From contig CANFBW010000020.1 in assembly GCA_947444925.1 (NCBI GenBank), forward strand, positions 1 to 52,922: a stretch of 52,922 bases of DNA, written 5' to 3'. Below, in pieces: positions 5,977 to 42,736 of the stretch; positions within the stretch are counted from its first letter, which is position 1, and each line of letters starts with the position of its first letter. Under the pieces are notes generated by a model that saw only the letters and a list, made by a program, of their open reading frames with translations, was not told the DNA's origin and did no database searches. The stretch comes from Flavobacteriales bacterium (lineage in GTDB: Bacteria; Bacteroidota; Bacteroidia; Flavobacteriales_C; GCA-002722245). A program made the position numbers and the translations under genes.

Positions 5977-8900
5977 ATGATTATGCAACGCCACTTTCGC
6001 TATTTCATTGGACTACTTTTGTTCTGGTCCCTATCTATCCAAACATACGCTGCCAATTGGTACATTAACGACAATTCCTTACTTGGTGACATCTATACCT
6101 CAGCCATCGGTAACGATGGAACAGGCAATGGCAGCAAAGCACAGCCATATCTTACAGTAGGCTTTGTGGTCAGCAATAAAGTACTCGCTGGAGGGGATAC
6201 TGTATTTATTGACGCTGGTGATTACAGCGCACTTTGGACTTTCAATTCTAATGTCGACGGAGGCAGCGCGGGCAATCAATTGGTAATTCAAGGCGCGGGT
6301 GCAGCACTCACCAAAAATGTTTGGAACGGCGGACAAGGTTTGGTAGTTGGCAACGGAGCAGGAGCAGGCAATAGCTACATTACCTTCAATGACCTTTATG
6401 TTGAAACAACGGCAAACGCACAAACCGTGTATATCAATGCTTTCACCTCATATATTAACTTCAATCGCTGCTCCATTAAATCTTCTGTATCGGGAGGAGC
6501 AATGACCTTTATGTCGGCAAACAACTGCGCAGTGATTTCCTGCGACATCAGCACAATATACGACGGTATAAATTGTTACAACGGATCCAATCACGTATAC
6601 GATGGCAACACGATTACGCAGCGTGGTGGCTATACTCCCGGCAGCAACCACATTGGAATACTGATTACGGGAACTGCTGCATTTCCAGCACCGCAATTGG
6701 CTGACAATTGCATGATCAGCAGCAATAGAATCAGCGGTTTTAACTTCGGTCTTGATATACAGGAAGAAGGAATCAACAACACCTGGAAAAACAATTATGT
6801 GTGGAATAGCGAGTATGGTATTTTTTGTACCCAAGGTGGAGGTGGCACACATCCATCAAACACCTTTAAATTCAATTCAATCATTACCGATAAAGATTGC
6901 ATTTTTGGCACCACATTGAACTGGACTATTGTCAACAACATTTTGTACACCCTCGGCGGTGCGGGCTACTCCTGCCTACATCTTCAAACCAGTACACATG
7001 ACCCTTCTACCCTAAATTACAATTTGTATTATGCGCCAACCGGCAAAATTGTAAATAGGAATGGCAGTACTTATGCGACACTTGCGCTGTGGAAACCAGT
7101 GTTGAATACCGACGCTAACAGCTTGTCGGGAAACCCACTTTTTATCAGCAATAGCAACCTTGACATTACACTCCCATCACCTGCCGTAAATAAAGCTTTA
7201 ACAGACCTTAGTGTCACCGACGATGTCCGACGTCCAGCGATCGTTCGCCCCACAAGCAAACAAGACATCGGTGCCTTTGAAATCGAGTTTCCTTGTGGCG
7301 ACACGACATTGTCGCCGTCAATTCCTAATCGTTGCACTGGCGCAACAAATTTTAATTTAAATGACTTCATTGGAAGTGCTGATCCAGGTTCTTGGTCGAT
7401 ATTCAATGGTCCTGTTGGCTATACGGCAACTGTAGGGGTTGATGGACATACCTTTAATTGTAACAATAGTGCTGGAGGCATTTATACTGTGCGCCACACA
7501 TTGTCAACTGTCGTTCCCACTTGTCCCGCCTTTGCAGACAGAACCTTTACTTTGTACTCCCTACCAACTGTGACTTTAGTGCTTTCTGATGCGCTAATGT
7601 GCACCAATGAGGCGACACAAGCGATCACCACGGCAAGTCCTCTGGGCGGAACTTTCAGTGGCAGCGGCGTCAGTGGAAACAACTACGATCCCTCGCTAAC
7701 AGCGATAGGGCCGCACACAATAACATACACTTATACCGATGGAAATTTTTGCGCCAATAGTGCGAACGCAGTGATGACAGTTGCAGATACCACTGTTGTT
7801 ACGCTGATCTTAGCAGACGATAAAATATGCGTCAACGAAGCCCCACAGGCCATAACTGTTGCCAGTCCTGTGGGCGGAACATTTAGCGGAAGCGGTGTCA
7901 ACGGAAACAACTATGACCCAAGCGCCGCAAGTATTGGAACACATAAAATCACTTATACTTTTAGTAATGTCAACTCCTGCATCTCTAAAGCAAACGACGA
8001 CGTGACGGTGCTCGACACAACAGCCGTTAGCCTAATTTTAGCCGATGACAAAATGTGCATTAACGAAACGCCACAAGCCATAACAATAGCTAATCCTGCT
8101 GGGGGAACCTTCAGCGGAAGCGGTGTCAGCGGAAACAATTATGCCCCTTCGCTAACAACAGCAGGAATACACACCATTACCTATGCCTACACCGATGCTA
8201 ACACTTGTACTTCAAAGGCCAGTGATGTGATGACAGTGCTTGACACTACTGCTGTCTCCTTAATCTTAGCCGATGATAAAATGTGTGTCAACGAGGCAGC
8301 TCAAGCCATTACAGTAGTTAGTCCGACTGGGGGAACCTTTAGCGGAAGCGGTGTTAACGGAAACAACTACGACCCAAGTTCTACAACTGTTGGAGCGCAC
8401 ACCATTACTTATGCGCTTCCCAATGCAAATACTTGCACTTCAAAAGCAAGTGACGTGATGACTGTATTTGATACTACCGCGGTCACCTTAATTTTAGCGG
8501 ATGACAAAATGTGTATCAACGAAGCCTCTCAAACCATAACTGTAGTGAGCATTACAGGCGGTGTTTTAAGCGGAAGCGGTGTCAGCGGAAACAATTACGA
8601 CCCAAGCAGCACAACTGCCGGGGCACATACCATTACTTATACTTTTAGTAACGCAAATTCGTGCATATCTGCAGCAAGCGATATTATGACAGTGCTAGAC
8701 ACCACCGCTCTTTCACTAATTTTAGCCGACGATAAAATGTGTGTCAATGAAGCGCCACAAGCCATCAGCGTGGTCAACATAGCAGGGGGAATTTTTAGTG
8801 GAAGCGGTGTTAGCGGAAACAACTACGATCCAAGTGCAACAACAGCGGGAGCACATACTATCAAATACACTTTCGTCGATGCAAACACGTGTACATCGGT

Positions 8901-10365
8901 TGCGAGCGACATCATGAATGTGCTTGATACCACTGCAGTTACCTTAATATTAAGCGACGACAAAATGTGCGTCAACGAAGCGCCGCAAGCCATTACTGTT
9001 GTGAGCGTTGCAGGTGGGACTTTAAGTGGAAGCGGTGTCAGCGGCAACAATTACGACCCAAGCACAACAACTATTGGAGCGCACACCGTCACTTATACAT
9101 TCACTAATGCCAATACTTGTACTTCAAAAGCAATTGATGTAATGACAGTAATAGACACCACCAATGTTTCACTAATTTTAGCAGATCACGAAATGTGCCG
9201 CAACGAGGCACCACAAACCATCGCTATTGCCAGTCCAACAGGAGGAGTCTTCACCGGAAATGGCGTCAGCGGAGACAATTACAACCCAGGCAGTGCAACA
9301 GCTGGCCCTCATATTATTACCTACACTTTTGTAAATGTTGGCAACTGTAGTTCCAAAGCAACAGATGTGATCACTGTACTTGACACTAGTGCTGCATCTC
9401 TTTTCTTAAGCGATCACATTATGTGCAAAAACGAAGCGCCTCAGGCCATCAATATTGCCAGTCCAGCAGGAGGAACATTCAGCGGAAGCGGTGTCAGCGG
9501 AAACAATTATGACCCCAACACCACAAGCATAGGAGCGCATGCCATCACCTATACTTTCAACAATTTGAACAGTTGCACATCAAAGGCCACAGCAGTAATG
9601 ACAGTTATAGCAATACCCGCACCGGCGTTTGCGAAGGACACCGTAAAAAGTTGCTTTGGAAAAACCGTCACTTTGGATCCAGGCACTTCTCACGCAATGA
9701 CTTACTTATGGAACCCTTCAGGCAACACGCCCACCATCAGTTTTAACGCCAATACCAGTGGCACTTATACTGTAAACGTAAACGATAATGGTTGCTCGGC
9801 TAGCGCCTCTGTTTACCTTCAGGTCGATACGCTTCCTCATGTTGATCTGGGAAAAAACACCACCTTGTGTAACAATAATTTCGATAAATTGACATTGAGC
9901 GCCAACAGTCCAAATGCGATTGCGATACAATGGAGTACAAACGAACAAAATGTACCAACAATAGTGGTGATGGAATCCGGACTGTACTACGTTAACGTCA
10001 CCAATAGCTTGGGCTGCGTAAACAGCGACTCCATAACCGTAAGCAACTACTGCGAAGACACACAATTGGAATGGCCCAATGTCATCACCACCAATGAAGA
10101 CGGAAAAAATGATGTATTCAAAGCCAAAGGAATTGATGACAGCAATGTCGATAAATACATTGCGAACCTAACCTTCATCAACTTTCAAGTATACGACAGA
10201 TGGGGCGTGCTTGTCTTTGGCTCCCAAGAGGATGTGCTTCCAAACTGGGACGGAAAATACCAGGGAATTGCGGTACCAAGTGGCACTTATTACTACATCA
10301 TAAGATACCAAAATACCGCAAAAAAGAGCTACGAAGTTCTAGGGTATATCACGCTGTTGCAATAA
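5977..10365 (+). CDS. Secreted T9SS cargo: beta-helix, nine 76-residue repeats, CHU_C C-terminal domain
   Basis: This 1462-residue protein has a signal peptide (1-25, ending QTYA; ATG at 5977, alternative ATG at 5983). Residues about 27-430 look like a right-handed parallel beta-helix: the opening 'GNDGTGNGSKAQPYLTVG' is typical, and Asn-rich rungs follow ('YINFNRCSI', 'NTWKNNYVWNSEYGIFC'). Residues 532-1215 are nine tandem 76-residue repeats. Residues about 1216-1365 are Ig-like modules. The last ~95 residues are a gliding-motility CHU_C/type B T9SS sorting domain ('NVITTNEDGKNDVFKA', 'QVYDRWGVLVF', 'YYYIIRYQN'). It is therefore expected to be exported by the T9SS and displayed or released at the cell surface. 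The helix fold is common in polysaccharide-active or adhesive proteins, but no catalytic signature was recognised. The Ig and C-terminal parts resemble those of the next gene. Confidence 0.85.
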   Translation: MIMQRHFRYFIGLLLFWSLSIQTYAANWYINDNSLLGDIYTSAIGNDGTGNGSKAQPYLTVGFVVSNKVLAGGDTVFIDAGDYSALWTFNSNVDGGSAGNQLVIQGAGAALTKNVWNGGQGLVVGNGAGAGNSYITFNDLYVETTANAQTVYINAFTSYINFNRCSIKSSVSGGAMTFMSANNCAVISCDISTIYDGINCYNGSNHVYDGNTITQRGGYTPGSNHIGILITGTAAFPAPQLADNCMISSNRISGFNFGLDIQEEGINNTWKNNYVWNSEYGIFCTQGGGGTHPSNTFKFNSIITDKDCIFGTTLNWTIVNNILYTLGGAGYSCLHLQTSTHDPSTLNYNLYYAPTGKIVNRNGSTYATLALWKPVLNTDANSLSGNPLFISNSNLDITLPSPAVNKALTDLSVTDDVRRPAIVRPTSKQDIGAFEIEFPCGDTTLSPSIPNRCTGATNFNLNDFIGSADPGSWSIFNGPVGYTATVGVDGHTFNCNNSAGGIYTVRHTLSTVVPTCPAFADRTFTLYSLPTVTLVLSDALMCTNEATQAITTASPLGGTFSGSGVSGNNYDPSLTAIGPHTITYTYTDGNFCANSANAVMTVADTTVVTLILADDKICVNEAPQAITVASPVGGTFSGSGVNGNNYDPSAASIGTHKITYTFSNVNSCISKANDDVTVLDTTAVSLILADDKMCINETPQAITIANPAGGTFSGSGVSGNNYAPSLTTAGIHTITYAYTDANTCTSKASDVMTVLDTTAVSLILADDKMCVNEAAQAITVVSPTGGTFSGSGVNGNNYDPSSTTVGAHTITYALPNANTCTSKASDVMTVFDTTAVTLILADDKMCINEASQTITVVSITGGVLSGSGVSGNNYDPSSTTAGAHTITYTFSNANSCISAASDIMTVLDTTALSLILADDKMCVNEAPQAISVVNIAGGIFSGSGVSGNNYDPSATTAGAHTIKYTFVDANTCTSVASDIMNVLDTTAVTLILSDDKMCVNEAPQAITVVSVAGGTLSGSGVSGNNYDPSTTTIGAHTVTYTFTNANTCTSKAIDVMTVIDTTNVSLILADHEMCRNEAPQTIAIASPTGGVFTGNGVSGDNYNPGSATAGPHIITYTFVNVGNCSSKATDVITVLDTSAASLFLSDHIMCKNEAPQAINIASPAGGTFSGSGVSGNNYDPNTTSIGAHAITYTFNNLNSCTSKATAVMTVIAIPAPAFAKDTVKSCFGKTVTLDPGTSHAMTYLWNPSGNTPTISFNANTSGTYTVNVNDNGCSASASVYLQVDTLPHVDLGKNTTLCNNNFDKLTLSANSPNAIAIQWSTNEQNVPTIVVMESGLYYVNVTNSLGCVNSDSITVSNYCEDTQLEWPNVITTNEDGKNDVFKAKGIDDSNVDKYIANLTFINFQVYDRWGVLVFGSQEDVLPNWDGKYQGIAVPSGTYYYIIRYQNTAKKSYEVLGYITLLQ
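7570..9621 (+). repeat. Nine tandem 228-bp coding repeats
   Basis: Units begin at 7570, 7798, 8026, 8254, 8482, 8710, 8938, 9166 and 9394. Each is exactly 228 bases (76 codons) with no insertion or deletion. The protein unit runs 'VTLILADDKMCVNEAPQAIT...GGTFSGSGVSGNNYDPS...GAHTITYTF.NANTC.SKASDVMTVLDTTA'. Every copy keeps two cysteines (unit positions about 11 and 61), a candidate intradomain disulfide. The end copies (1, 8, 9) are the most diverged and the middle ones the most alike, as expected if units are exchanged by unequal recombination. Confidence 0.95.
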
Positions 10366-26062: not shown

Positions 26063-26722
26063 ATGGAAATAAATTTAACAGGAAAACCAGCCTTCACCTA
26101 CGTCAACGTAGATTTACAACCTGGAGAAACCATCATCGCTGAAGCCGACGCAATGGCCAGTATGGCAGCAGGAATCAGCATTTTAGCAAAAACCAATGGC
26201 GGTATTATCGGTGGCTTGGTAAAAAAATTCGTAGGAGGCGAAAGCTTTTTCGTAAATCACTTTACAAACAACAGCAACAAAGTTCAGCGACTTGTTTTAA
26301 CACAGCCAACACCTGGTGACATGAAGGTGATGGAACTCAATGACCAATCATATTGTTTGCAAGGAGGCTCATACATCGCTTGTACTTCGGGAATCAAACT
26401 CGGGGTTAAATGGGCTGGTATCTCCTCACTAATCGGCGGCGAAGGTTTGTTCAAACTGCAAGCGTCGGGAACAGGACAATTGATCTTTGGTGCCTATGGC
26501 GCATTGATTGAAAAAGACATCGATGGTGAATACATTGTTGACACCAGTCACTTGGTGGGCTACGAGCCACATATGAAATTAAAAACACAATTGTCGGGAG
26601 GCATCTTCTCTAGCTTTTTTGGCGGCGAAGGATTGGTCACACGGGTAGAAGGAAAAGGAAAAATCATTATTCAATCACGCAGCGTTAGTGGCTTAACTGC
26701 TTGGTTAAACCGTTATTTTTAA
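26063..26722 (+). CDS. AIM24/TIGR00266-family protein, copy 1
   Basis: 219 residues, all-beta, with no signal peptide or transmembrane helix. Family features shared with the two following genes: 'PGETIIAEADAMASM' near 22-36, 'GGESFFVNHFT' (about 68-78), 'PGDMKVMEL', 'GGSYIACTSGI', 'ISSLIGGEGLF', 'GEYIVDTSHLVGYEP' and C-terminal 'FFGGEGLVTRVEGKGKIIIQSR'. The family (yeast AIM24, bacterial YnaI/TIGR00266) has a beta-solenoid-like fold and no known enzyme activity. It begins 1 base after the M48 protease stop. This copy has Gly-rich 'TNGGIIGGLVKKFVGGE' where the others carry a charged 'K(K/M)...' segment. Confidence 0.85.
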   Translation: MEINLTGKPAFTYVNVDLQPGETIIAEADAMASMAAGISILAKTNGGIIGGLVKKFVGGESFFVNHFTNNSNKVQRLVLTQPTPGDMKVMELNDQSYCLQGGSYIACTSGIKLGVKWAGISSLIGGEGLFKLQASGTGQLIFGAYGALIEKDIDGEYIVDTSHLVGYEPHMKLKTQLSGGIFSSFFGGEGLVTRVEGKGKIIIQSRSVSGLTAWLNRYF

Positions 26723-26731
26723 TCGTACACT

Positions 26732-27409
26732 ATGGAAGTTAAAATAGAAAAAGGACCGGGCGCTGCAGCTGCAAAAGTTACCTTGCAAGCCGGCGAAGTG
26801 CTCACCGCAGAATCTGGCGCAATGATCGCCATGAGCGACGACTTAAGCGTTGAAACAACAACGCACAAAAAAAATTCACGCGGCATCATGAAGGCCATCA
26901 AAAGAGCCATCTCCGGAGAAAGTTTTTTTATGAACCACTTTACTGCCGGACCGCAAGGCGGCACTGTATATTTGGGCTGTACGCTTCCTGGCGACATGTT
27001 TACCTATGAATTAAATGGCGACAAGTTGATTGTGCAGGCAGGTTCATATGTTGGCTCAGCACATGATGTGAATGTGGAATTCAACTGGCAAGGATTTAAA
27101 TCATTGTTCTCAGGCGAAAGTGCTTTTTGGTTAGGTGTTTCGGGCAAAGGAACCGTTATTTTAAATTCATTTGGCGCCATTTATTCTGTTGAAGTCGACG
27201 GCGATTACATCGTGGATACAGGCCACATTGTTGCTTTTCAGGAGACTTTAAATTTCAGCATCGGCACTGCCGGTTCAAGCTGGATCAACTCGTACTTTGG
27301 AGGTGAAGGACTCATCTGCCGCTTCAGAGGAAAAGGCACTGTATGGTGTCAATCACACAACGACAATGCATTTGGATCAGCACTCACACCGAGTTTAAAA
27401 ACAAGATAA
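26732..27409 (+). CDS. AIM24/TIGR00266-family protein, copy 2
   Basis: A 225-residue paralogue of the flanking genes. Conserved points: 'AGEVLTAESGAMIAMSDD' (about 20-37), 'SGESFFMNHFTAG', 'PGDMFTYEL', 'AGSYVGSAHDV', 'FKSLFSGESAFWLGVSGKG', 'DGDYIVDTGHIVAFQ' and 'YFGGEGLICRFRGKGTVWCQSH'. Compared with copy 1 it has a basic segment before the SGESFF motif ('KNSRGIMKAIKRAI'), which could contact a membrane surface or nucleic acid (speculation). It starts 9 bases after copy 1. Confidence 0.85.
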   Translation: MEVKIEKGPGAAAAKVTLQAGEVLTAESGAMIAMSDDLSVETTTHKKNSRGIMKAIKRAISGESFFMNHFTAGPQGGTVYLGCTLPGDMFTYELNGDKLIVQAGSYVGSAHDVNVEFNWQGFKSLFSGESAFWLGVSGKGTVILNSFGAIYSVEVDGDYIVDTGHIVAFQETLNFSIGTAGSSWINSYFGGEGLICRFRGKGTVWCQSHNDNAFGSALTPSLKTR

Positions 27410-27412
27410 GAC

Positions 27413-28084
27413 ATGGAAAACACTTTTGAACATTACATAGAGGGCAGACCCGATTTCGCTTTACTGACCGTAAAAATACCGTCGGGACAAACCCTGAAAG
27501 TTGAAGCGTCGGCCATGGCTACCATGGACACCAATCTCAAAATGAAAACCAAAATGAAAGGAGGCTTCGGACGATTGTTCACCGGAGAATCCATCTTCAT
27601 CAATGATTTCACCGCTGAAAATGGTGCAGCCGAAATAAAAATTGCACCTTCTGCACCAGGCGATCTTATTCACTATCCGCTCAACGGCAGTGAAACTTTG
27701 TATTTGCAAAGTTCGGCTTTTGTGGCTTCAGCACCATCGGTAACAGTGAATTCAAAATGGCAGGGCTTCAAAGGCTTCTTCAGTGGCGCAGGATTGTTCC
27801 TTGCACAATGCACTGGCAGCGGCGATTTGTGGTTCAACAGTTTTGGAGGTGTCATTGAAATCGACGTGAAAGATTCTTACGTCGTGGATACTGGAAACAT
27901 AGTGGCCTTCAGTGGAAATCTTAACTATAGTGTTACGCGTTTCGGTGGCTACAAATCGCTATTCTTCTCTGGAGAAGGTTTGGTTTGCCGCTTTCAAGGC
28001 GAAGGCAAAGTGTGGATTCAAACCCGAAAAATTGGACCGCTAACTTCCTGGGCCCATCCATTTCGACCAGAAGGAAAAAATTAA
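27413..28084 (+). CDS. AIM24/TIGR00266-family protein, copy 3
   Basis: A 223-residue third paralogue. Conserved points: 'SGQTLKVEASAMATMD', 'KGGFGRLFTGESIFINDFT', 'PGDLIHYPL', 'SAFVASAPSVTV', 'GFFSGAGLFLAQCTGSG', 'DSYVVDTGNIVAFSG' and 'FSGEGLVCRFQGEGKVWIQTRK'. By eye it is closer to copy 2 than to copy 1. It starts 3 bases after copy 2 and is the last gene before a strong terminator, so protease plus three AIM24 genes appear to be one transcription unit. Confidence 0.85.
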   Translation: MENTFEHYIEGRPDFALLTVKIPSGQTLKVEASAMATMDTNLKMKTKMKGGFGRLFTGESIFINDFTAENGAAEIKIAPSAPGDLIHYPLNGSETLYLQSSAFVASAPSVTVNSKWQGFKGFFSGAGLFLAQCTGSGDLWFNSFGGVIEIDVKDSYVVDTGNIVAFSGNLNYSVTRFGGYKSLFFSGEGLVCRFQGEGKVWIQTRKIGPLTSWAHPFRPEGKN

Positions 28085-34408: not shown

Positions 34409-35392
34409 TTACTTCAATTTATTTATGCGCAACGAAAGCGTATCCATAAAGTTCTGTGATGCTGCCGACTTCATCATAAGTGGCGAAATAAAATTTGCTC
34501 TTGCACCGCACGTGGCCAGATGGTCAAAACACCAATAGGCACTGCCCTTGCTGTTGCACAAGGAATCGATTTTTTGCAAAAATGCTAGCCTGTTGCGCTG
34601 CGTGCGCAATATTCCTGAGAATCCAGGCGACTCATATACAATAACCTGCACGCCTTTGGTGCGTGCCAAATCCATTATTTTCACAAAATACGTCTCCCGC
34701 GTGGCATTCCAAATGAAAGTCTTATCGGCTGCATCTTCTGGCGTATTGCCAAATTCATCTAGCTGAACATCGAACAACAAGCTATCGCTTTTTCGAGCAG
34801 GATCGAAGAAGGGACTAACTGCCGGTCGATGTTGCTCGTAGCCCTTACTCAAATAAGGCTTTTGTTTGCCGCTGTTCCAATGCTTGAGTCCTTGTAGTGC
34901 CGGAAAAAGAAGCATTCTTCCAAAATACGTGTAGCGCAACAATGGCAGGCGAATCCACGGTGCATAGTTGCTATCGAGCTCGCCGATGGTTGCACTCACA
35001 ATACTATCGGCTAAGAATGGAGCAAAGCGATAAGCATGAAAAGTATTGAAGCGCAAATCAAAGGACTCAGGCGTTACATAAAGCAATAGCATTTTAGGCG
35101 CCGGATTGCTTTTCAAAAAAAGATAGAAATGCAAATAATTATCGGCAAAATCGGAATGGTTCAAAGACAAGTTGTATACTGGACAGCTCAATTTTTTCTC
35201 CAAATAATCAGGATCAATAGTGAACAATGGCTCACAGGGACCCAACACCAGTGCTTCAGCACGCACCTTGCCTTGCCCAGCGTAGGACGCTTTTAAATTA
35301 AGATTGTGTGACAAACCAAAATACAACAAATAGTCAAGCGCAAATGCAGCAGCCATAACCAGTAACAACAATATGGTGAGTTTCTTTAACAT
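34409..35392 (-). CDS. MBOAT-associated SGNH-like protein (DltD/AlgJ-type), catalytic Ser absent
   Basis: The 327-residue protein has an N-terminal membrane anchor or signal (1-20) and a periplasmic SGNH-hydrolase-like domain. 'EALVLGPCEPLFTIDPDYLE' (46-65) sits where DltD and AlgX/AlgJ relatives have 'vlGsS....', so the nucleophile position is Cys53 rather than Ser. 'VYNLSLNHSDFADNY' (72-86) and 'MLLLYVTPESFD' (101-112) fit later blocks of the MBOAT-partner family. The C-terminal block normally carrying D-x-x-H-L-N is 'SPLMMKSAASQNF', without His. It begins on the last base of the MBOAT stop (TAATG overlap). It is probably the periplasmic partner of the MBOAT; whether it is an enzyme is unclear. 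Confidence 0.65.
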   Translation of the reverse strand: MLKKLTILLLLVMAAAFALDYLLYFGLSHNLNLKASYAGQGKVRAEALVLGPCEPLFTIDPDYLEKKLSCPVYNLSLNHSDFADNYLHFYLFLKSNPAPKMLLLYVTPESFDLRFNTFHAYRFAPFLADSIVSATIGELDSNYAPWIRLPLLRYTYFGRMLLFPALQGLKHWNSGKQKPYLSKGYEQHRPAVSPFFDPARKSDSLLFDVQLDEFGNTPEDAADKTFIWNATRETYFVKIMDLARTKGVQVIVYESPGFSGILRTQRNRLAFLQKIDSLCNSKGSAYWCFDHLATCGARANFISPLMMKSAASQNFMDTLSLRINKLK

Positions 35393-36780
35393 TAAAAACG
35401 CGCATAAATAAATTGTTCGCCATCACTAAATACCCCGAGCACAGCAATAAGTAGTAGGAAGGAAAACAGCCAACTCACACTGAATTTATCACTGTTGGCT
35501 TTTGCGTTGAGTTTGCCCTCAAAGAGTAAAAAAAGAAGCACGAGCAAAGCAGCTAAAGCACAATTAAAAAGATCATTGAGTTCTCCTCCTTTTCCTATAA
35601 CTGCCACAAAACCGGCCAACCAGTTGTGCGGCCAAAAAGTATTAAAAGAAAAAATATCTGTTGTTAGTTTGTAAACCACTTGCAGGTCGGCAGCGCGAAA
35701 AAACACATTGGCAAAACTCACTGTAACAAGAGTCAAGAACCAACCCAAAGCTTTTGGAATTTTTATTTGACGATGTTGTGCCAACAATTCAATGCTGAGG
35801 TAAAGCATATGGCAAACTCCCCAAAGTAAAAAGGTAAGGCCGATACCATGCCAGAATGCAGAAAAAAACAAGGTCAAAACAATGCCAAAAAATGCTGACC
35901 ACAAAGCGCTCTTTCGGAAATAATATGAAAAGGGGTAGTACACGTAGGCGCTCAGCCACTGCATCAAGGTGATGTGCCAGCGGCGCCAAAAATGGGTGAT
36001 GGATGTTGCCCGCAGGGGAAGAGCAAAATTTTCAGGCAAGTTAATGCCAAACATACGCGAAATGCCCAAAGCCATGTCAATGTAGCCTGAAAAATCAAAG
36101 TACACCTGCAGGGTAAAAAGCAATCCGCCAAAAAGTGCGGTGAATCCGTGCAAGGGATAGCTGCCTTCAAAAACTGCTGCACTCATTGGCGCCAAGCGAT
36201 CAGCGAGCACCAATTTTTTAAAAGCACCAAAAGCAAAACGGTTGGCACCAGAAACAAGGTTTTCTAATTTAAAAATCGGAGCGCTAAACAATGCTTTTTT
36301 TGCATTTTGATAAGTAATAACTGGACCGCACAACAATTTCGGAAAATAAGCAGCTGACAAAATATAATAGCCAGCCTTTTCTTCGGGCTTGATGCGTCCA
36401 ATTTTTATGTCAAAAAGATAGGCCATGTGCTGTAATGCGTAAAAGGATAGACCAAGTGTTAACATCAGCGTGGGTGTGGCGCTTCCCCTCCACGCTCCGT
36501 CCTCCAGAAGCAGTACTTTAAAAATTACCAGTTCAAAGAGCAAAATTGACAAACCCAATACGAACAAGACTTGCTTGTGCTTCGCGCTGGTAGAAATCAG
36601 TCGTCCCCAATAAAAAGCAAAAAAAGCATTGCCCAACAGCAAGAGAATTGCGCACCATTGCAAGTAAGCAATGAAAAGCAAACTGGCGAAAAACAAAACA
36701 TGCAGTGGATATTTAGAGCGGTAATAAAACAGCAAGCTTAGCGCCAAAAAAAAAACAAAATATAGTGCTTCCAACAACAT
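35392..36780 (-). CDS. MBOAT-family O-acyltransferase (AlgI/DltB-like)
   Basis: A 462-residue polytopic inner-membrane protein (about 10-11 hydrophobic segments). MBOAT marks: 'FPKLLCGPVITY' (146-157), 'VYFDFSGYIDMALGISRMFG' (226-245), 'FWRRWHITLMQWLSAYVYYP' (264-283, His269) and the catalytic 'SAFWHGIG' (307-314, His311). It transfers an acyl group across the membrane to a surface polymer. The ATG at 36780 overlaps the stop of the acyl carrier gene (TAATG), so the ACP is the likely donor. The acceptor could be an exopolysaccharide, a lipooligosaccharide or another glycan; sequence does not say. Confidence 0.9.
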   Translation of the reverse strand: MLLEALYFVFFLALSLLFYYRSKYPLHVLFFASLLFIAYLQWCAILLLLGNAFFAFYWGRLISTSAKHKQVLFVLGLSILLFELVIFKVLLLEDGAWRGSATPTLMLTLGLSFYALQHMAYLFDIKIGRIKPEEKAGYYILSAAYFPKLLCGPVITYQNAKKALFSAPIFKLENLVSGANRFAFGAFKKLVLADRLAPMSAAVFEGSYPLHGFTALFGGLLFTLQVYFDFSGYIDMALGISRMFGINLPENFALPLRATSITHFWRRWHITLMQWLSAYVYYPFSYYFRKSALWSAFFGIVLTLFFSAFWHGIGLTFLLWGVCHMLYLSIELLAQHRQIKIPKALGWFLTLVTVSFANVFFRAADLQVVYKLTTDIFSFNTFWPHNWLAGFVAVIGKGGELNDLFNCALAALLVLLFLLFEGKLNAKANSDKFSVSWLFSFLLLIAVLGVFSDGEQFIYARF

Positions 36781-37028
36781 TATACCGCACTTGTTTTTTG
36801 TGCAATGCAATCTACAATATCGCCCAATGTTTGAAAATCAGTTACCTCCACAAAAGAAAACCGTAGTGAGAAAGCCTCTTCAATTTTAGAAATCAAGGGC
36901 AAATGAGAAAAGGAATTCCACGCAGAAATATCAGCAGCGGCAGTGGATTCATCACAAACAAAACCGTTCAGCTTAAAGAAATCAATCACGATTTCCCCCA
37001 CTTTTTGTAAAATTTCTGCGTGCTCCAT
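36780..37028 (-). CDS. Acyl carrier protein dedicated to the adjacent MBOAT
   Basis: An 82-residue acidic helical protein starting at ATG 37028. The phosphopantetheine site is Ser39 in 'AWNSFSHLPLI' (36-46), where the usual Asp before Ser is Asn; 'KIEEAFSLRF' and 'FQTLGDIVDCIA' are typical ACP helix 2 and 3 segments. It is more like the DltC/AcpA-type single-domain carriers next to MBOAT genes than like fatty-acid ACP, which usually has 'DSLD'. First gene of a trio with the MBOAT and SGNH-like genes (one-base stop/start overlaps). A ligase that would load it (DltA or acyl-ACP synthetase type) is not in the window. Confidence 0.85.
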   Translation of the reverse strand: MEHAEILQKVGEIVIDFFKLNGFVCDESTAAADISAWNSFSHLPLISKIEEAFSLRFSFVEVTDFQTLGDIVDCIAQKTSAV

Positions 37029-38347: not shown

Positions 38348-41300
38348 TTAGCGAATGATAGTCAAGCTGCCAGTTTTAGAATCTTTGGCACCACCAAAAT
38401 ACTGCACTTCAGCATAATATACATATGACTCCATGTTTTGTGGTTGTCCTTTGTAAATGCCGTCCCAGCCTTGGTTGATGTCACTTGACTCAAAAACAAT
38501 TTCACCCCAACGGTTGAAAATTCTGAAGGTCAAAAGCTTTTCAATACCCCAACCTTTCACAAATACAAGGTCATTGATTCCATCGGCATCGGGTGTAAAA
38601 GCGGTAGGCACATCCATCGTAAAAATTTTGCGAACACAAATCTTGTAGATTTTTGTAGACTCAAAACAATTCATCGTATCGCGCATCACCAGTTTGTAAG
38701 TGCCATCTTGCAAAACAATTAAACTTGGCATAGGGCAATCGGTACAACTCAAATTTTTAGTTTCACCGCTCGTCCAGTCATAGGTATAACCATCGCCATG
38801 ATCCGTTCCAAGTATGGTTGATTGACCAATGATGACGCAGGTATCTGTTAGGATGAAAGGAATCTGATTGTACACCGTAGCATTTACAGTTTTGGCCAAT
38901 ACACAGCTGTTGGTGTCGCTCACGGTAACCGTATACGCTGTGCTTTTACTTGGATGCGCAAGAGTTGATGCCTGATTTGGGGTACTCAAACTATCTGTTG
39001 GCGACCAAACGTAGTGGTAGCCCAACTTAGGAGTTGCCGATAATATTTTACTATCGCCAAAGCACATTGCTACATCACTGGTGCTGAAGGAAGGCTCAGC
39101 ACTCATCACTAATTTTTTCTCTGTAGTATCCTTGCAACCAGATGCATTGTCAGCAATGCGCAAAGACATGGTGTAGTTACCTACAGAAGCGATGGTTATT
39201 GGCGCGACAACCTGTCCATTAAATTTTTGTTGTGTTGGAGAAAGCACCCATTCCCATGAATCGGCACCACCCGAAGAATCGGTCACCGTTAATTTATCGC
39301 CCAAACACAATGCACTGTCACTGATGCCAAATCTTGCATAAGCATCGTGCAGTTGAACAGTGTGTTTCGGACTATTAGAGCAAGCCTTGCCAGCAGAGTA
39401 CACTGTTAATGAAACCGTGTTTATTCCCCCCGGAGGATAAAAATCAAATTTGTTGTACACAGGGTTTCCACCTTGCACTATTCTACCGCTAAAATCCCAT
39501 TCCCAAGTGGCAACGTCTTTTGCATTGACTATTGTGAACTTCACCGAATCACCGATACAAATTAAATTTTTATCGAGCGTGAAATCAGCTACAGGTCCCA
39601 CAATGGTAATAGCGCGCGTAGTGTCGTCTTGACAACCGAAAGAAGTTTGCGCCACCAACTTAGCATTGTAAGTTCCAGGTTGACCATAGGTAAATTTAAC
39701 GGGCGATTGCGGCAAAACCGGATCACCAGTACCCACATTCCAACTCACTACAGTAACTGGTGAATTGGCTGTGGAGTGATCGTAAAATGCAGCAACAAAA
39801 GGGTAACACAAGTTTGCGGTTGAATCGGCATTGCTGGTATATGAAGCAACAGGATACGATTGCACATCAATAAATGCTGACTTTGTCAAAGAGTCTTTAC
39901 AGCCATGCACGTCTTTTACAACCAATTTAACATCGTAAGGACCAGGAGCATTTTTGAAAGCATGCGCAACAACTGGATTGTTGTTCACCGTGGTAAGCGG
40001 ACTGCCGTCGCCAAAGTCCCAAGTGAATTGTGTATTTTGATTTCCCGCGGCGGTAAAAGTGGTAGCAACATTGGTGCACAAAGTTTGGTCAGCAGCACTA
40101 AATTCAGTAACAGGCAACCACGGCGTTACCACTTTCACAATACTGTCTTGACAGCCCAGTTTGTCGGTCACTATCATTTTGACTGAAAAGGGATTGCCAA
40201 CCTTTGATGAATAATTGTGTGTCGGCGATTTAATATTTGCCGTATTCGACAATGAAGTGGCGTCACCAAAATTCCATTGCCATGCAACCACCGCCGTATC
40301 TGAATGCGTGGTATCGTTAAATATCACTGGAAAAGGCAAACATCGAGAAGTATTGTCCATCGTGTATCCAGCAACGATGTGGTACACTTTCAAATTAAAA
40401 AAAGCAGTGTCTTTACATCCGTTTTGCGCACTAACAATCAAGCGCACGGTGTCCTTTCCAAAGTTCGCATACGTGTGTTTTGCAGTAGTAATGTTTGTAA
40501 GAGATGGCACTGAACCATCACCCCAATCCCAGCGGTAACCATTTTGACAAGCTGAGAAAACATCAACCGACGAGGCAGCGCTAAAAGTATGCTCTACTTG
40601 TCTACAGATAACAGCTGCTGTTGTAATCACCGCCTTTACTTGGCGCACCACAACATCAACAGTGTCGGCATAATCAGCACAACCCGACGTGCCATTGGTG
40701 CCCTTAAGAATAACTTGATAATTACCACTTGCCGCGTAGGTATGCGTTACAGTAGAATCGGTAGATCCTGCAACGATGATGGCATCACCAAAATTCCAAG
40801 TCCATGAATCAGCGCCAGAAATCTTTCCTTTAAAAGTATAGTCCAAAGGTTTGTCACACTGCGCCGAATAAGTCAACCGCGCAATAGGCCCTTTTAAAGT
40901 CACTGCATTTGTAATTGTTTTTGTACTCGAACAACCATTGTATACCGCAGTGAGCGTTACATCTTGCGGGCCAGCTACCCCGTTGAAAGAAGTTGTCCAC
41001 GTAGAGTCGCTTGCACAATCAGATACATTGCCTCCATCCGCAGTATAATGCCAAGCGCTTACTTTATTTCCTGGCGTTAAATCAGTAAAAGTCACCGCTT
41101 CATTCGGACAAACAGATGCAGAAGAAACAGAAAAATTAGTTGCTGTTACATCACCCACCTTTATCACAATCACATAACTCGTGTCCGTACATCCCTTTAC
41201 GTTACTCACATTTAACACTACTTTGTATTCACCTGGCGTATTGTAAGTATGTGGTGCTGGATTTTTAATGTTCGCTGTTTGATTGTCGCCAAAATCCCAA

Positions 41301-42736
41301 TGCCATAAATTGATTGCTTCTTTTGATCGAGATGAATCTGAGAAAGTAACGGTAAGCGGCGCACAGCCCTCCTTTTTATTCGGTTGAAAACGCGCTATAA
41401 TTGGGATGATCGTGTCGGTTTTTGTAACAATTGCCTTACAACCCAATGCTGTTGTGACTTGCAATGTCGTTGGAAAAAACAAGGGATCGTACACCGAATA
41501 CTCGCTATCGTCAGGCTTATTGATGGTATTTGACGGGTTTTGCTGTACAGATGATTTGTTTTGCGGAAAGGCCCATGACCACGAAACCCCTTTCGGCACT
41601 GACGTATTGGTGAAGCTGTTTTTCAAAGGAAAATCGCAATGGTAAGTAGGTGTTCTGGTAAAATTAGCAACTACATTTTCAACCACAAAAGCAACGGTAG
41701 TATCGTCATTGCAGCCATTCGCTGAGGAAGTAAGTTTTACATTATACGTTCCCGGCGCAGCGAATACGTGTATCGGTGATGTGGTATTGACAACAGGCGA
41801 ATTGTCGCCAAAATTCCAGCTGTATGAATTGGCGCCTATACTGCTGTTGTTAAAAAACACATTGCTGTTGGGACAAGCTGAATCATTGGCCAAAACAAAG
41901 GAAGCTGTAGGTTTATTCACCACTATTAACGAAGTTGTTGTTGCCACACAGCCATTTGCCTCTGAAACCGTTAATTTCACGGTGTATGCGCCAATGGCAT
42001 TGTACGTCACCGCATTCGGCGTCGTTAAAATAGAATTGGTAGCATTGCCAAAGTCCCAAGCATAAGTTAACAATCCGCCTTTTCCAGCGGTTGAATTGTT
42101 TTGAAAATTCACTGTTAAAGGCGCCGTACACGACTGGTTTACAGAAGGCGTGAACGCAGCAACAGGCGGTGTATTTGAAACCACAATTGGCGTGATCCAA
42201 GTAGTATCGTCTTTACAGCCATTGGCATCCGTTACCGTAAGAGCATTATTGTTGAAGCTTCCTACCAAAGAAAAAGTATAGTTTGGATTTTGCACTGAAG
42301 GAATCGTTCCGCCATCTCCTGCCGTCCATTGCCAAGCAGTAATTGCAGTATTTCCACCACCCACTGATTCGTCTTTAAATTTCACTGCCAACGGAACGCA
42401 ACCACTTAAGGGCGTTGCTGAAAATTGGGCTACCGGATTTGCAAATACGGTGATGGTTTTATTGAAACTACCCGCACTTCCTACATAAGTAACATTGTAA
42501 ACACCCGCTTTTGTAAAGATGTGTGGTGGATTTTGAACATTGGTGGTAGAGTTCAATTCGAAAGTCCACAAACCATTGATTGACCCCACAGGCGCAGTAA
42601 AATTTACAGTTAACGGAACACAACCAAACGTTTTGTCAACAGTAATTTGCGCTGAGGCAAGGCCTGCAAAAAATACGCTAAAAAGCGCTAGCAGAAACGA
42701 CTTTTTGCACTTAGTTATTAGTTTGATTGTACGCAC
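38348..42736 (-). CDS. Giant PKD-repeat adhesin with CHU_C T9SS sorting domain
   Basis: A 1462-residue protein with a GTG start (42736) and signal peptide (1-29, ending LASA-Q). About 14 PKD-type units follow, each with a 'W(D/N/E)FGD' core and 'H/YTY...G.Y.V.L.V....GC.D' ending ('AWDFGNATN', 'SWNFGDNSPVV', 'HWDFGDNQTAN', 'WNFGDATSLSN', 'TWDFGDGSPLT'), then two Ig-like units and a type B C-terminal domain (about 1370-1462: 'AFTPDADGINDLVFV', 'FRIFNRWGEIVF', 'GWDGIYKG'). It resembles SprB/SprC/SprD-type gliding adhesins in plan, not in size. It lies divergent from pseudo-M43, PorP/SprF and PorE-like genes, the usual setting for a T9SS cargo with dedicated partners. Cysteine pairs in most units suggest disulfides. 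Confidence 0.88.
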   Translation of the reverse strand: MRTIKLITKCKKSFLLALFSVFFAGLASAQITVDKTFGCVPLTVNFTAPVGSINGLWTFELNSTTNVQNPPHIFTKAGVYNVTYVGSAGSFNKTITVFANPVAQFSATPLSGCVPLAVKFKDESVGGGNTAITAWQWTAGDGGTIPSVQNPNYTFSLVGSFNNNALTVTDANGCKDDTTWITPIVVSNTPPVAAFTPSVNQSCTAPLTVNFQNNSTAGKGGLLTYAWDFGNATNSILTTPNAVTYNAIGAYTVKLTVSEANGCVATTTSLIVVNKPTASFVLANDSACPNSNVFFNNSSIGANSYSWNFGDNSPVVNTTSPIHVFAAPGTYNVKLTSSANGCNDDTTVAFVVENVVANFTRTPTYHCDFPLKNSFTNTSVPKGVSWSWAFPQNKSSVQQNPSNTINKPDDSEYSVYDPLFFPTTLQVTTALGCKAIVTKTDTIIPIIARFQPNKKEGCAPLTVTFSDSSRSKEAINLWHWDFGDNQTANIKNPAPHTYNTPGEYKVVLNVSNVKGCTDTSYVIVIKVGDVTATNFSVSSASVCPNEAVTFTDLTPGNKVSAWHYTADGGNVSDCASDSTWTTSFNGVAGPQDVTLTAVYNGCSSTKTITNAVTLKGPIARLTYSAQCDKPLDYTFKGKISGADSWTWNFGDAIIVAGSTDSTVTHTYAASGNYQVILKGTNGTSGCADYADTVDVVVRQVKAVITTAAVICRQVEHTFSAASSVDVFSACQNGYRWDWGDGSVPSLTNITTAKHTYANFGKDTVRLIVSAQNGCKDTAFFNLKVYHIVAGYTMDNTSRCLPFPVIFNDTTHSDTAVVAWQWNFGDATSLSNTANIKSPTHNYSSKVGNPFSVKMIVTDKLGCQDSIVKVVTPWLPVTEFSAADQTLCTNVATTFTAAGNQNTQFTWDFGDGSPLTTVNNNPVVAHAFKNAPGPYDVKLVVKDVHGCKDSLTKSAFIDVQSYPVASYTSNADSTANLCYPFVAAFYDHSTANSPVTVVSWNVGTGDPVLPQSPVKFTYGQPGTYNAKLVAQTSFGCQDDTTRAITIVGPVADFTLDKNLICIGDSVKFTIVNAKDVATWEWDFSGRIVQGGNPVYNKFDFYPPGGINTVSLTVYSAGKACSNSPKHTVQLHDAYARFGISDSALCLGDKLTVTDSSGGADSWEWVLSPTQQKFNGQVVAPITIASVGNYTMSLRIADNASGCKDTTEKKLVMSAEPSFSTSDVAMCFGDSKILSATPKLGYHYVWSPTDSLSTPNQASTLAHPSKSTAYTVTVSDTNSCVLAKTVNATVYNQIPFILTDTCVIIGQSTILGTDHGDGYTYDWTSGETKNLSCTDCPMPSLIVLQDGTYKLVMRDTMNCFESTKIYKICVRKIFTMDVPTAFTPDADGINDLVFVKGWGIEKLLTFRIFNRWGEIVFESSDINQGWDGIYKGQPQNMESYVYYAEVQYFGGAKDSKTGSLTIIR

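Follow-up and report, generated by a model that had tools for sequence, protein, structure and literature searches.

A Dlt-like gene trio of Gram-negative Bacteroidota with a cysteine in place of the serine of its DltD-like protein

To our knowledge, MBOAT-SGNH pairs are thought to be uniform in their chemistry, with the acyl group moving from a donor to a tyrosine, then to a serine and then to a polymer, and the described pairs in the Gram-negative setting of Bacteroidota use acetyl-CoA. As far as we know, a Bacteroidota host should also be without teichoic acids. In the Dlt system (DltA-B-C-D and DltX) of Firmicutes and the PatA/PatB system of peptidoglycan O-acetylation, a carrier or CoA donor gives the acyl group to the MBOAT, which places it on the tyrosine of an F-x-Y-x-x-F motif, and from there it passes to an SGNH serine and onward (PMC12148441). 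This C-terminal motif (F-x-Y-x-x-F or FIYxxF) is the acyl-tyrosine shuttle of both PatA and DltX, and PatB retains the serine nucleophile (PMC12148441).

Here we describe three adjacent genes of a Flavobacteriales bacterium, found in a window of 52,922 nucleotides (the whole stretch of DNA analyzed), that resemble each of these systems in part. With Dlt, the trio and its relatives share a ligase, a carrier protein, an MBOAT, a DltD-fold protein and the F-x-Y-x-x-F motif, and in relatives the genes form a single operon. However, the host is Gram-negative, the shuttle motif is fused to the MBOAT rather than carried on a separate DltX, the ligase is unlinked here, the DltD-like protein has no Ser-Asp-His triad, and the curated cut-offs for DltA and DltB are not reached. 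With PatA/PatB and the alginate system AlgI/AlgJ/AlgX, it shares a Gram-negative host, an MBOAT with a C-terminal tyrosine motif and an SGNH-fold partner, but those systems use acetyl-CoA and have neither carrier protein nor ligase. By analogy, the donor side would be Dlt-like (ligase and carrier) and the shuttle PatA-like (fused motif), with an acceptor enzyme that has Cys53.

Layout of the trio and its first two proteins

All three open reading frames lie on the minus strand at the positions described earlier (Table 1). We read both junctions off the sequence: the last base of the ACP stop codon (TAA, 36782-36780) is the first base of the MBOAT ATG at 36780, and likewise at 35392. A sequence-only reading of this DNA had reported single-base TAATG overlaps among three genes, as well as Ser39 of the ACP, His269 and His311 of the MBOAT and Cys53 of the third protein. 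The junctions and the translations bear this out, and the residues lie in WNSFSHL (Ser39), WRRWHIT (His269), FWHG (His311) and GPCE (Cys53). That reading also proposed that the three products are made together. The overlaps agree with this, but linkage cannot be essential, given that elsewhere these parts co-occur even when their genes are dispersed over the genome.

Table 1. Coordinates of the trio and its features, and loci of the related four-gene rows
Feature	Position	Strand	Remarks
Acyl carrier protein (ACP), 82 aa	36780..37028	-	Ser39 codon 36914-36912, motif WNSFSHL
MBOAT acyltransferase, 462 aa	35392..36780	-	His269, His311; FIYARF with Tyr459 codon 35406-35404
GPC-type DltD-like protein, 327 aa	34409..35392	-	N-terminal membrane helix 2-28
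GPC protein, Cys53 codon	35236-35234	-	
GPC protein, His79 codon	35158-35156	-	
GPC protein, further residues			Glu54, Thr107, Glu109, Ser110, Glu254; Ser303/Met306 replace the block V Asp/His
TAATG overlap, ACP stop/MBOAT start	36778..36782	-	read directly from the sequence
TAATG overlap, MBOAT stop/third-gene start	35390..35394	-	read directly from the sequence
Contiguous ligase-ACP-MBOAT-GPC rows			L037, L043, L045, L047, L048, L179, L184, L187

The ACP scores below the cut-offs of both the Pfam PP-binding model (17.3 bits, cut-off 20.8) and the NCBIfam subfamily NF002150 (32 bits, E 1.1e-7). All 20 carrier proteins that we compared retain the phosphopantetheine serine; the context sought for it was D/N-S-L/M/F, which WNSFSHL of the trio's ACP matches. 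The MBOAT exceeds the Pfam cut-off (PF03062, 91.3 bits against 27) and falls below that of NCBIfam DltB (TIGR04091, 115 bits against 375). Across 18 partner MBOATs, W310-H311-G312 and a C-terminal F-I-Y-x-x-F are invariant, and the C-terminal FIYARF of the window's protein has the F-x-Y-x-x-F form that defines a fused acyl-tyrosine shuttle of the PatA type. Two relatives without a linked ACP (L018 and L019) have Asn at the conserved His269 of their MBOATs; their carrier is probably one borrowed from the Ser type (WTSMTN).

Fold and pocket of the GPC protein

The third protein is above the cut-off of no family in Pfam or NCBIfam; its only sub-threshold match is to DUF1574 (15.8 bits, cut-off 29.1), the curated DltD model (PF04914) gave no match, and a Protein Data Bank sequence search with the GPC profile returned nothing relevant. 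We built an AlphaFold model from ten relatives; its mean pLDDT is 85.9, and it shows an N-terminal helix at residues 2-28 and SGNH-type element order. The top Foldseek matches are DltD structures (7dxm, 6pfx and 3bma, E 2.9e-5 to 9e-4, TM about 0.4-0.5, with 7dxm the best at E 2.9e-5), and VIA-align gave Z scores of 13-15 to TesA, PAF-AH, PatB and DltD, which agrees with the SGNH alpha/beta/alpha fold. From these matches and the helix, we take the protein to be membrane-anchored and DltD-like by fold, not by sequence model. It has in common with the DltD family (PF04914) the N-terminal membrane helix and the SGNH-type fold, but it differs in giving no sequence match, in having Cys for Ser and in having lost D-x-x-H. 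The fold, the DltD matches and the ACP and MBOAT partners together uphold the earlier proposal of a Dlt-like or AlgIJ-like acyl-transfer module.

Relatives were collected by motif-independent whole-genome searches and by a scan of contigs. The patterns of the contig scan included GPCEP or Y[VA]TPESFD and were thus biased toward Cys; HMM-based searches without motif patterns gave the same result. With a single window protein as the query, the contig scan found zero relatives, and the alignment-based scan found them. The class-wide search was two-peaked: 21 of 395 genomes reached at least E 1e-105, and no other hit was stronger than 1e-34. All upper-peak proteins that were read are GPC, and those read from the lower peak have GSSR or GNSR together with the block V His. 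Across the phylum, only the window's own genome, 1 of 395, reached E 1e-100 or better. The GPC family is therefore rare, at 1/395 in the phylum sample and 21/395 in the class sample. The named loci are all from uncultured Bacteroidota, including one filed as Chryseobacterium gleum that is probably misnamed. In the open-access literature we found neither a Cys-type SGNH transferase nor a Dlt system of Bacteroidetes, and either may exist elsewhere.

For the pocket comparison we aligned 21 GPC-type proteins with 9 of the Ser type, and six further genomes were added to the GPC totals, which comprise 27 proteins from 26 Bacteroidota genomes (L167 of G503 included, L175 and L176 left out). At the block I nucleophile position, all 27 GPC proteins have Cys and all 9 Ser-type proteins have Ser, and the latter retain the block V His that no GPC protein has (0/27). 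The other pocket residues of the GPC type are nearly as constant (Glu109 in 27/27, His79 and Glu254 each in 26/27, Glu54 in 24/27). In the 21-versus-9 alignment, five columns hold one and the same residue in both types. Just three columns are constant within each type yet differ between the types, with Cys for Ser at 53, Glu for Arg at 54 and Thr for Asp at 107; His306 is the sole further constant residue of the Ser type that is lost. At block II, where the SGNH superfamily has its oxyanion-hole Gly and the Ser type has Gly or Ser, all 21 GPC proteins have His79, with Gln in one of the wider set, and Glu109, Ser110, Glu254 and Ser255 are new constants of the 21. His never occurs at position 306, which holds Asn, Ile, Met, Val or Leu, and position 303 is Ser or Cys, with Thr in one protein. 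Where Ser-type relatives have FYNxxHLN or DGNHLN in block V, the window's protein has FISPLMMK.

On this alignment, the change from Ser to Cys together with the loss of D-x-x-H is a fixed trait of the GPC family, so both peculiarities that the sequence-only reading had pointed out, a block I Cys53 and a C-terminal D-x-x-H that it could not see, are genuine. We searched the homologues for a conserved serine shifted by one position in combination with an intact D-x-x-H and found none. By alignment, positions 53, 54, 107 and 306 would all lie in the pocket, and alignment to the SGNH blocks predicts that Cys53, His79 and the Glu residues are near one another in space. All three GPC members without Glu54 also carry Ser at the position of Thr107, which suggests that residues 54 and 107 touch. 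In G707, His79 is replaced by Gln and Glu254 by Asn, and thus neither residue is strictly required across the family. Taken together, the pocket looks rebuilt rather than decayed, with a pattern of changes that appears to be under selection. A disulfide role for Cys53 was ruled out, as a second invariant Cys is absent.

Loading ligases and partner MBOATs in related genomes

The sequence-only reading had called the trio minimal and without a loading ligase, and had suggested a search for a ligase linked to the trio elsewhere. We found such a ligase in eight other genomes, where a contiguous row consists of a DltA-like ligase, directly upstream, followed by ACP, MBOAT and GPC genes. The description as minimal is therefore not supported, and the absence of a ligase holds for the trio's own locus but not for its genome (G000), which has two DltA-like ligases on another contig. 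The ligases score 265-313 bits against the amino acid adenylation domain model (TIGR01733), slightly under its cut-off of 317, and 195-263 bits against the D-Ala-specific DltA equivalog (TIGR01734), whose cut-off is 560. In each of the 20 aligned ligases the A domain has its amino-group Asp (FDxS), an indication that the cargo is an amino acid; the reading of the specificity pocket in these 20 yielded this Asp only and no substrate prediction. Among the 26 genomes with a GPC protein, 22 have a DltA-like ligase. In one more, G643, the ACP gene adjoins a gene for an FkbH-type loader (263 bits to TIGR01686, above cut-off), and the search of G448, G456 and G679, of which G456 may be incomplete, gave no ligase.

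Two of these genomes have other arrangements. The row of G643 (L180, 1655-6444) contains a GPC protein (Gln54), an MBOAT, the FkbH-type protein and an ACP, which amounts to a swap of the adenylating ligase for a glyceryl-type loader. In G448 (L178, 3987-6944), an unlinked GPC-type MBOAT adjoins a 517-aa open reading frame that by eye resembles a GH3-family adenylating enzyme. We also considered Glu54 as a binder of the cargo's amino group. The Gln54 of G643, with its FkbH-like, glyceryl-type loader, fits this idea, but G707 has an amino-acid-type ligase yet Val54, and the idea is not supported.

The two ligases of the window's genome belong to a second, Ser-type module on contig C5, which consists of tandem ligases, an ACP, an MBOAT ending in FVYAQF and a DltD-like protein. 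The makeup is that of the trio with its ligases, but the DltD-like protein of the C5 module has intact GTSR and DGNH motifs and its MBOAT falls in the other clade. The C5 ligases are 41% and 38% identical to the L045 ligase, and in the ligase tree they group with the Ser-module ligases of the genus, apart from those of the contiguous GPC operons. The tandem pair (L068, 7984-11118) includes a second ligase on a longer branch, perhaps specialized for one of two carriers. The two C5 ligases likely load the trio's ACP; the ligases of G000, G001 and G002 all group with those of Ser-type modules, however, and their use by the trio is thus putative. From the tree placement, the trio probably once had a ligase of its own that was lost and then replaced. 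This is backed by G004, in which one ligase remains where the Ser-type module would lie, the ACP, MBOAT and SGNH genes of that module are missing, and the trio is present.

In other genomes the set is divided over several sites and yet complete. In the genus of the window's bacterium, to which G004 belongs, G001 has an MBOAT-GPC pair, a ligase-ACP pair and a full Ser-type module. G003, of the same genus, has two sets: an MBOAT-GPC pair plus a ligase-ACP pair, and an ACP-MBOAT-GPC trio plus a lone ligase. A sister genus has the GPC gene alone, an ACP-MBOAT pair and a lone ligase, and G452 and G453 have the GPC gene alone, the MBOAT gene alone and a ligase-ACP pair. Nevertheless, the GPC protein and its own MBOAT clade occur together in 26/26 genomes, scattered genes included. 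A tree of 43 MBOATs has two groups, each at 100/100, with 26 GPC-associated members (unlinked ones included) in one and 17 others, including partners of Ser-type proteins, in the second. In the class sample of 395 genomes, 21 have both GPC and the matching MBOAT, none has GPC only, and one (77% complete) has the MBOAT only; the Fisher p of 6e-34, with no correction for kinship, overstates the evidence because the genomes are related. The scattered layouts weaken an explanation of this co-occurrence by simple neighborhood.

Proposed pathway and alternatives

On balance, and at slightly better than even confidence, we favor the view that the trio forms the membrane-side end of a Dlt-like pathway of Gram-negative Bacteroidota, with a DltD-like protein that probably uses Cys53. 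A DltA-like ligase encoded elsewhere, probably one of the two on C5, would load an amino acid onto the phosphopantetheine at Ser39 of the ACP, and the MBOAT would then transfer this aminoacyl cargo through the inner membrane to its own Tyr459 in FIYARF, much as DltX serves in Dlt and as PatA handles acetyl. The DltD-like protein would receive the group from Tyr459 and hand it to an acceptor in the envelope. In its pocket, which has no Ser-His-Asp triad, Cys53 is the most likely nucleophile and would form a thioester, with His79 (invariant in the 21) and one Glu (54, 109 or 254) as candidate helpers. More tentatively, the GPC protein may be a Cys-dependent DltD-type transferase that moves the acyl group from tyrosine to a Cys53 thioester and then to the acceptor. 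Thioesters have good reactivity toward amines, so an amide on an aminosugar, a lipid or a protein is a conceivable product. We know of no counterpart for such envelope N-acylation among MBOAT-SGNH systems.

If Cys53 is not catalytic, the GPC protein could be a pseudoenzyme that binds to the MBOAT or steers the acceptor, with the acyl group going from Tyr459 to the acceptor directly or to a Ser-type SGNH protein. This is a doubtful but serious alternative, since the canonical catalytic groups (Ser, block II Gly and D-x-x-H) are all missing, His79 and Glu254 are absent from G707, and a regulatory role has also been proposed for DltD in complex with DltB (PMC11035591). A dead pocket should drift, however, and no positions of the protein are more constant than Cys53, Glu109 and most of the pocket across homologues of 31-60% identity; the trio was also kept in G004 despite the loss of the Ser-type partner in the ligase's module. 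Another reading is a metal site in which Cys53, His79 and at least one Glu bind an ion such as zinc, and a metal-activated water or acceptor hydroxyl acts with no covalent intermediate. The new invariant Cys, His and Glu are a common set of zinc ligands and, by alignment, sit at the ends of central strands, but G707 has Gln79 and Asn254 within a whole ligase-ACP-MBOAT-GPC operon and, as weak evidence, a metal-dependent SGNH relative is absent among the fold matches, which makes this reading improbable.

We consider it more improbable again that the MBOAT and GPC protein are an ordinary O-acetylation pair of the AlgI/AlgJ or PatA/PatB type that uses acetyl-CoA, with the ACP as a bystander. An MBOAT with an SGNH-fold partner and FIYxxF is common to those systems, but the ACP retains its phosphopantetheine serine and is joined through TAATG, amino-acid-type ligases with the FDxS Asp lie within the same operon in eight genomes, and the described acetyl-CoA systems have no carrier protein (PMC12148441). 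That the third gene is decaying or wrongly assembled would account for the missing catalytic residues of the nearest known families, but it is hardly credible and already refuted by 27 full-length open frames in 26 genomes with the same substitutions.

The GPC subfamily thus keeps the first two parts of the relay and has consistently replaced the active site of the third, along with a clade of MBOATs of its own. If Cys53 is catalytic, this would be a natural switch from an oxyester to a thioester intermediate inside one protein family, and the favored pathway, if true, would place a carrier-protein-fed (aminoacyl) surface modification in Gram-negative Bacteroidota. By these comparisons, the Gram-positive machinery for adding amino acids to cell wall polymers has a relative in uncultured Bacteroidota, and the constant Cys of its last enzyme, in place of the classic Ser-His site, suggests a changed chemistry of surface decoration.

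Apart from the trio, the window contains three tandem AIM24-family genes on the plus strand (26063-28084) and two open reading frames of 1462 aa each on opposite strands (5977-10365 and 38348-42736). The latter are 25% similar over the C-terminal 400 residues and have only short, weak matches beyond them, so their equal length is chance.
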